From: Synechocystis sp. PCC 7338
Lineage (GTDB): Bacteria > Cyanobacteriota > Cyanobacteriia > Cyanobacteriales > Microcystaceae
NCBI RefSeq assembly: GCF_018282115.1
Contig: NZ_CP054306.1
Location: forward strand, 3,395,488-3,459,487
Reading direction: 5' to 3'
Length of the DNA: 64,000 nt
Below are positions 24,564 to 24,831 of this stretch, piece after piece (positions within the stretch are counted from its first letter, which is position 1; every line of letters starts with the position of its first letter). The notes beneath the pieces are model-generated. The model saw nothing but the letters and a program-made list of their open reading frames with translations, searched no databases and was not told where the DNA came from. The translations under genes and the position numbers were made by a program.

Positions 24564-24577
24564 GTATTCCCTTCTAC
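24564..24577 (+). promoter_or_regulatory. NtcA binding site (GTA-N8-TAC)
   Basis: GTATTCCCTTCTAC fits the NtcA consensus exactly. It lies 255 bases before the petH start codon. NtcA is known to activate petH in PCC 6803 under nitrogen stress. No ideal TAN3T -10 box sits at the usual 20-24-base distance, so the exact promoter is uncertain. Confidence 0.65.
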
Positions 24578-24773
24578 AAGATTGACCCAACCAAGGGGAG
24601 TGCCTCTCCATGCTGAACTAATTTAAGCTCGTCCTAGGCTTAATCGTCCGGTAAAGTGATACAGGGGTTACATTTTATCAAGGTTAACTTTGTTAGGGTG
24701 ATAGGACTAAATCTCCGCTTCTGACCCCACTGCTCCTCCCAGCCACGGCGATCGCCTGACGATGGTAGGCTTG

Positions 24774-24805
24774 ATAATACTGCAATAAATTTCTGTCAGT
24801 ATTAT
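24774..24805 (+). promoter_or_regulatory. Inverted repeat in petH leader, overlapping a -10-like box
   Basis: ATAATACTG (24774-24782), 14-base loop, CAGTATTAT (24797-24805), a perfect 9-bp stem ending 12 bases before the GGGAG ribosome-binding site of petH. GATAAT (24773-24778) in the left arm could be the -10 box of a proximal promoter, so a transcript starting near 24785 would lack the left arm, while a longer transcript would contain the whole hairpin. Confidence 0.5.
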
Positions 24806-24831
24806 TTGATTGAGTAGGGAGCAATTAACCC

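Follow-up and report, generated by a model that had tools for sequence, protein, structure and literature searches.

The 5' region of petH seems to carry two promoters, and we consider it rather probable that the choice between the proximal and the distal one switches the gene between its two products, an anti-Shine-Dalgarno (anti-SD) stretch in the long leader closing the start of the long isoform, FNR-L. The longer message thus probably hides the first start site, and the shorter enzyme, FNR-S, is made. That the isoforms are switched by two leaders is already known, having been published for PCC 6803. The two starts, their nitrogen dependence and the choice of isoform by RNA structure are taken from the literature; the sequences, their conservation and the in silico folding are from this analysis. 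The exact start points, the anti-SD stretch as the lock and the place of NtcA binding are what we infer.

When nitrogen is replete, the proximal promoter (TGGTAGGCT, 24763-24771) would yield a leader of about 53-57 nt, from which FNR-L is translated from the ATG at 24832. Under nitrogen starvation, a distal promoter, probably TGTTAGGGT (24691-24699), would start the leader some 70 nt further upstream. The added piece would bring in the anti-SD stretch at 24732-24743, which would pair with GTAGGGAG at 24814-24821; the first start would be closed and Met113 would be used. A 9-bp hairpin lies inside the loop closed by the anti-SD helix; in the closest strains, it may help the two sides to meet. 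It would not be the lock.

The petH locus and the published switch

The window, i.e., the whole 64-kb stretch of DNA analysed, contains petH on the plus strand at 24832-26073. Its open reading frame encodes a ferredoxin-NADP oxidoreductase of 413 amino acids with a CpcD linker domain (FNR-L); a Pfam search places CpcD at residues 18-75 and NAD_binding_1 at 266-379. In the match to PDB 8hfq_m, which we take to be the FNR of PCC 6803, 7 of 413 residues differ, which marks the strain, by its sequence, as a close relative of PCC 6803 and not as PCC 6803 itself. Synechocystis salina LEGE 00031 has an FNR and a petH leader nearly identical to those of the window. The letters of the ATG at 24832 were checked. 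The codon of Met113, the reported start of FNR-S, is at 25168-25170 in the translation of the plus strand; by eye, no strong Shine-Dalgarno (SD) sequence stands just 5' of it. The SD of FNR-L is the GGGAG at 24817-24821 (plus strand), a part of GTAGGGAG. The genome gives two matches to petH, the second one limited to residues 13-80. petH is a single gene with a CpcD-like N-terminal domain and an internal Met, the arrangement that goes with a two-leader switch. Divergent from it, on the minus strand at 23323-24321, lies prk for phosphoribulokinase, recognised by its open reading frame and the Pfam domain PRK. Rfam gave no match at E≤1 between 24300 and 25300.

According to the passage on petH in PMC4094844, which cites Omairi-Nasser 2011, PCC 6803 uses the proximal promoter and a short leader under standard conditions and the distal promoter and a long leader under nitrogen depletion; the translation start is chosen by alternative secondary structures, with leader length as the sole determinant. 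The same passage reports FNR-S under nitrogen starvation, and PMC9144156 states the two-leader mechanism briefly. The window has a single petH and would share the rest of this scheme: a predicted proximal promoter with a short leader for FNR-L, a predicted distal one with a long leader for FNR-S in nitrogen starvation, and a choice by leader structure. The first-pass annotation had proposed the same outline, with two 5' ends of which the long one, formed under nitrogen depletion, leads to the short isoform via RNA structure, and here it agrees with the published behaviour of PCC 6803 as described in these passages (PMC4094844, PMC9144156). The passages on the mechanism do not specify the base pairs of the switch, and a search by title revealed no further paper on petH leader structure beyond those cited. 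A title by Omairi-Nasser 2014, on NtcA, stands in the reference list of PMC6462935. For petH of Anabaena PCC 7120, the relevant passage of PMC4183373 gives a constitutive start at -63 and an NtcA-activated one at -188.

The comparison used 41 leaders (L002-L042) from 41 of the 50 genomes of the family, whereas in the nine others petH is absent, incomplete or without CpcD, or has a broken frame. Some small genomes of the family (G040, G041, G037 and G002) have petH frames with in-frame stops, and in G037 and G002 the match to petH does not begin before residue 93 or 112. The wider set comprised 189 leaders, after three loci lacking a usable ATG had been dropped. Folding drew on the 59 of these that carry a family-type -10 and nine of the remaining 130, which belong to family f30, by inference taken to be the Nostocaceae. 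Removal of leaders more than 0.88 alike reduced the 59 to 27, including two from outside the family (L084 and L092), and the f30 leaders from 12 to 9.

Two predicted promoters of petH

The proximal extended -10, TGGTAGGCT (24763-24771, plus strand), is conserved: all 41 leaders of the family have TGnTAG[GT]CT no further than 110 bases from the ATG. The first-pass annotation had chosen another -10, the GATAAT at 24773-24778. It does lie in the left arm of the 9-bp repeat, except for its first base. In L005-L008, however, its counterpart reads AAGAGT, AAGAAT, GAAAAT and AATAAT, while TAGGCT, seven bases upstream, is kept; GATAAT was rejected on these grounds. The position of the start can be estimated from family f30, where the first base of the counterpart hexamer, TAAACT, lies 72-76 bases upstream of the ATG (12 leaders, selected for carrying TAAACT). 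Anabaena PCC 7120 has two petH promoters, as is predicted for the window, and the f30 counterpart of the proximal -10 stands at the matching place, TAAACT beginning 9-13 bases upstream of the -63 start given in the passage of PMC4183373. By analogy, this spacing would put the proximal start of the window near 24775-24779. The proximal transcript was expected, in the first-pass annotation, to lack the left arm of the repeat; with a start at 24775-24779, it is predicted to lose 1-5 of the nine bases, but not all of them. By eye, leaders of f30 such as L204 and L214 have a hairpin of the type GCCAGTTT...AAACTTAAAGCTGGC spanning the proximal -10 TAAACT; in L214 it reads GTCAG/CTGAC, a change on both sides.

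The distal promoter is probably TGTTAGGGT (24691-24699, plus strand), an extended -10 whose predicted start at about 24706 would give a leader of about 126 nt. In relatives, TGnTAnnnT recurs at a similar distance: it is at -141, -141, -125, -129 and -139 from the ATG in L002, L004, L005, L006 and L008, respectively, and was not found in L007. Upstream of it, TGATACAGGGGTTACA (24657-24672, plus strand) matches an NtcA site in 6 of 8 positions, and its TAC stands 22 bases before the candidate -10. We tentatively regard it as an NtcA-like site for the distal promoter. The spacing is right, but the conservation is poor: by eye, it is not kept in L005, L006 and L008, which are outside the closest strains.

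The candidate anti-Shine-Dalgarno lock and competing explanations

In riboswitch and RNA-thermometer platforms, an upstream anti-SD pairs with the SD and initiation is turned off. The petH proposal shares this pairing of an upstream stretch with the SD; it differs in that the choice would lie with the promoter instead of with a ligand or the temperature. The candidate stretch, GCUCCUCCCAGC (24732-24743, plus strand), is upstream of the proximal promoter and therefore occurs in the long transcript only. Two registers are predicted: CUCCC at 24736-24740 with GGGAG (P about 0.40) and GCUCC at 24732-24736 with GGAGC (P about 0.33). With 5' ends from 24564 to 24712, the SD of the window is unpaired with a probability of 0.05-0.16, as compared to 0.20-0.37 with the 5' end at 24778. 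Opening the 30S footprint costs 12.6 kcal/mol in the long and 10.0 in the short leader, and opening the region from SD to AUG 6.4 versus 4.8 kcal/mol; for the SD only, the costs are nearly equal (3.5 versus 3.2 kcal/mol). The SD is fairly closed (0.14-0.24) in short leaders, too, if they are cut at 24872.

In the long leader of the window (24706-24872) the SD openness is 0.06, and it rises to 0.27 when the anti-SD is randomised (60 random draws per element). Randomising the left arm of the repeat leaves it at 0.04, and randomising the right arm or the loop yields 0.10 and 0.08. An alignment of seven leaders, six of them distinct and picked after the complementarity had been seen, contains the 8-bp helix of 24736-24743 with 24814-24821 in 91.7% of 48 cells, against 44-52% when the partners are slid; as few columns vary, 76 of 500 column shuffles match this score. 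In L007, a member of the same genus, two positions of the helix are mismatched, the distal -10 is missing and the SD is open (0.71).

Over the 27 dereplicated leaders, the 60 upstream nt are significantly complementary to the SD (Stouffer z -3.4). Five leaders are individually at p<0.05, namely Microcystis L011 (p 0.002), L005, L006, L008 and L038. The SD is less open in the long than in the short form in 23 of 27 (Stouffer z -3.9, 4 of 27 at p<0.05). All these z values are overstated because the leaders are related to one another. When the coding part is extended from 40 to 60 bases, the z for the SD drops to -2.17, and openness still falls from 0.36 to 0.25; under this setting, coding positions score stronger than the SD, with -2.73 at +21 and -2.61 at +36. 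For the window by itself, neither test reaches significance (complementarity, p 0.32; SD openness, p 0.20). Family f30 displays no SD occlusion in its 9 dereplicated leaders, among which PCC 7120 was not identified. Taken together, sequence comparison and folding lend moderate support to the anti-SD at 24732-24743 as a better candidate for the lock than the hairpin.

The first-pass annotation had assigned the lock to this hairpin. Its letters are indeed there: the arms ATAATACTG (24774-24782) and CAGTATTAT (24797-24805) enclose a loop of 14 nt, and the GGGAG follows downstream, yet after 11 and not 12 bases. That the repeat at 24774-24805 (plus strand), present in the long transcript only, blocks initiation of FNR-L unaided appears quite improbable to us. 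In the long folds of the window its arms are paired at 0.99, and with 5' ends at 24778-24780 the right arm becomes unpaired at 0.53-0.67, as such a lock would have it; with the 5' end at 24776, however, the right arm is mostly paired (0.26 unpaired). In the window, the segment from the proximal -10 to the SD is more stably folded than its shuffles (p 0.04), one of two leaders at p<0.05, but over the 27 leaders there is no such signal (Stouffer z -1.04). Both arms occur in just 3 of the 41 family leaders, the window and its two closest strains (L002-L004); in L005 another small hairpin takes its place, and in the aligned leaders the helix of the repeat is paired in 64.8% of cells. The arms are identical in all three carriers and, therefore, uninformative. 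Conservation among related petH leaders, which the first-pass annotation had made decisive, thus fails for the repeat and leaves the switch itself unaffected. The 11 bases that separate the 3' end of the repeat from the SD and the SD that stays closed after randomisation of the left arm also speak against the hairpin, which was rejected as a conserved lock in view of its 3 of 41 leaders and the missing local-fold signal. The repeat could, of course, act at the level of DNA, as the operator of a repressor sitting over the proximal start point. It overlaps the predicted start at 24775-24779, and a divergent prk-petH operator was reportedly once proposed for Synechocystis by van Thor in 1998. The right arm, however, is not conserved past the three closest strains, and we give this idea very little credit.

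A more diffuse explanation dispenses with any single element: the whole long leader would close the start, since most long upstream sequences fold there, and selection on structure would be slight. Shuffled upstream sequences also lower the mean SD openness of the 27 leaders (0.36, compared to 0.49 in the short form), two other upstream pieces of the window matter when randomised (0.13 and 0.15), and the registers of complementarity differ between strains. At the genus level the test is not significant, with a mean near zero, 10 of 14 groups negative and one outlier at +7. The real leaders, however, are in the mean more closed than the shuffled ones (0.20 versus 0.36). Also, the aligned helix is complete (8/8) in three of the six distinct leaders (L005, L006 and L008), 7/8 in two (the window and L004) and 6/8 in one (L007), and it contains one compensatory change, C-G to U-A in Snowella, with G-U changes elsewhere. 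We therefore hold the diffuse explanation to be unlikely, if worth keeping in mind, and prefer the anti-SD lock.

The palindrome in the presumed prk promoter

The first-pass annotation had further noted a GTA-N8-TAC, GTATTCCCTTCTAC at 24564-24577, which is present, and had read it as the NtcA site of petH. In its extended form, TGTAN8TACA (24563-24578), it is unique in the 64-kb window, which contains 7 copies of the plain GTAN8TAC. When the 510-nt stretch between prk and petH was dinucleotide-shuffled 1000 times, 6.5% of the shuffles had the plain form and 0.4% the extended one. Of 400 shuffled versions of the 268-nt leader, 1.25% had a perfect 9-bp inverted repeat with a loop of 3-20, and 12 repeats of that grade exist in the whole window. 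Palindrome and repeat are both above chance locally; the repeat is not rare in the window.

An NtcA class II activated promoter reads GTAN8TAC-N20-24-TAN3T. On the plus strand, no TAN3T is found at a spacing of 20-24 downstream of 24564-24577; bases 21-32 after the site read GAGTGCCTCTCC. Nor is the distance of the palindrome to the distal -10 of petH constant, being 127, 117, 95, 98 and 101 in five strains. As a class II site for petH it was rejected for these two reasons. In the six strains with the palindrome, it lies 244-256 nt from the prk ATG, 220-269 from the petH ATG and 18-19 bases from the extended -10 on the prk side. On the minus strand it is situated between TTGT and TGATAGAAT or a similar sequence, which together make up the presumed prk promoter (24550-24579). 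The NtcA-type palindrome in this core promoter, TGTAGAAGGGAATACA (24563-24578, minus strand), is shared by few relatives: of the 41 petH leaders of the family, 6 have GTATTCnCTTCTAC.

Upstream of prk, 19 of 30 loci have the layout TTGT-N-TGnTAnnnT, where chance would give 0.01 per 450 nt; strains with an incomplete palindrome are among them. It accompanies 19 of the 21 prk genes beside petH and 0 of the 9 away from it, on a different contig or far away; on both strands, it is absent upstream of petH in 7 genomes without an adjoining prk. That the layout is tied to petH adjacency argues against its simply belonging to prk, except if the prk genes that moved away acquired other promoters. From the sequences, the palindrome is best read as part of the presumed prk promoter, the linkage pattern not being decisive, and NtcA, if it binds there, would be in a repressing position. 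Upstream of a Microcystis prk (L143), a petH-type TGGTAGGCT stands 263 bases before prk, with petH on another contig.

In the petH leaders of six relatives (L009, L027, L028, L034, L037 and L038), GTATT[GT]AAGATTAC begins exactly 21 bases upstream of the first base of TGGTAGGCT. This would place an NtcA-type site between the -35 and the -10 of the proximal petH promoter, from where repression would be expected.

The first-pass annotation is thus partly supported: its outline is right, the parts it named fit poorly, and its hairpin, -10 and NtcA site are probably not the working parts. A broader reading would join the two promoter regions: selection would have kept an anti-SD helix as the switch throughout the family, in registers that shift, and the palindrome would be a site from which NtcA represses the divergent prk promoter around it. 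The region that responds to nitrogen starvation with the long petH transcript would then also be the one in which NtcA reduces prk, and several relatives would have an NtcA-type site in a similar repressor position on the proximal petH promoter. As a whole, we find this combination doubtful.

The readings of the anti-SD and of prk are testable refinements of a known behaviour. If the anti-SD at 24732-24743 is the lock, two mutations in PCC 6803 would suffice to test the isoform switch. Should the palindrome be part of prk, a single region would link the nitrogen status to the flux through the Calvin cycle (prk) and to the enzyme of NADPH (petH).
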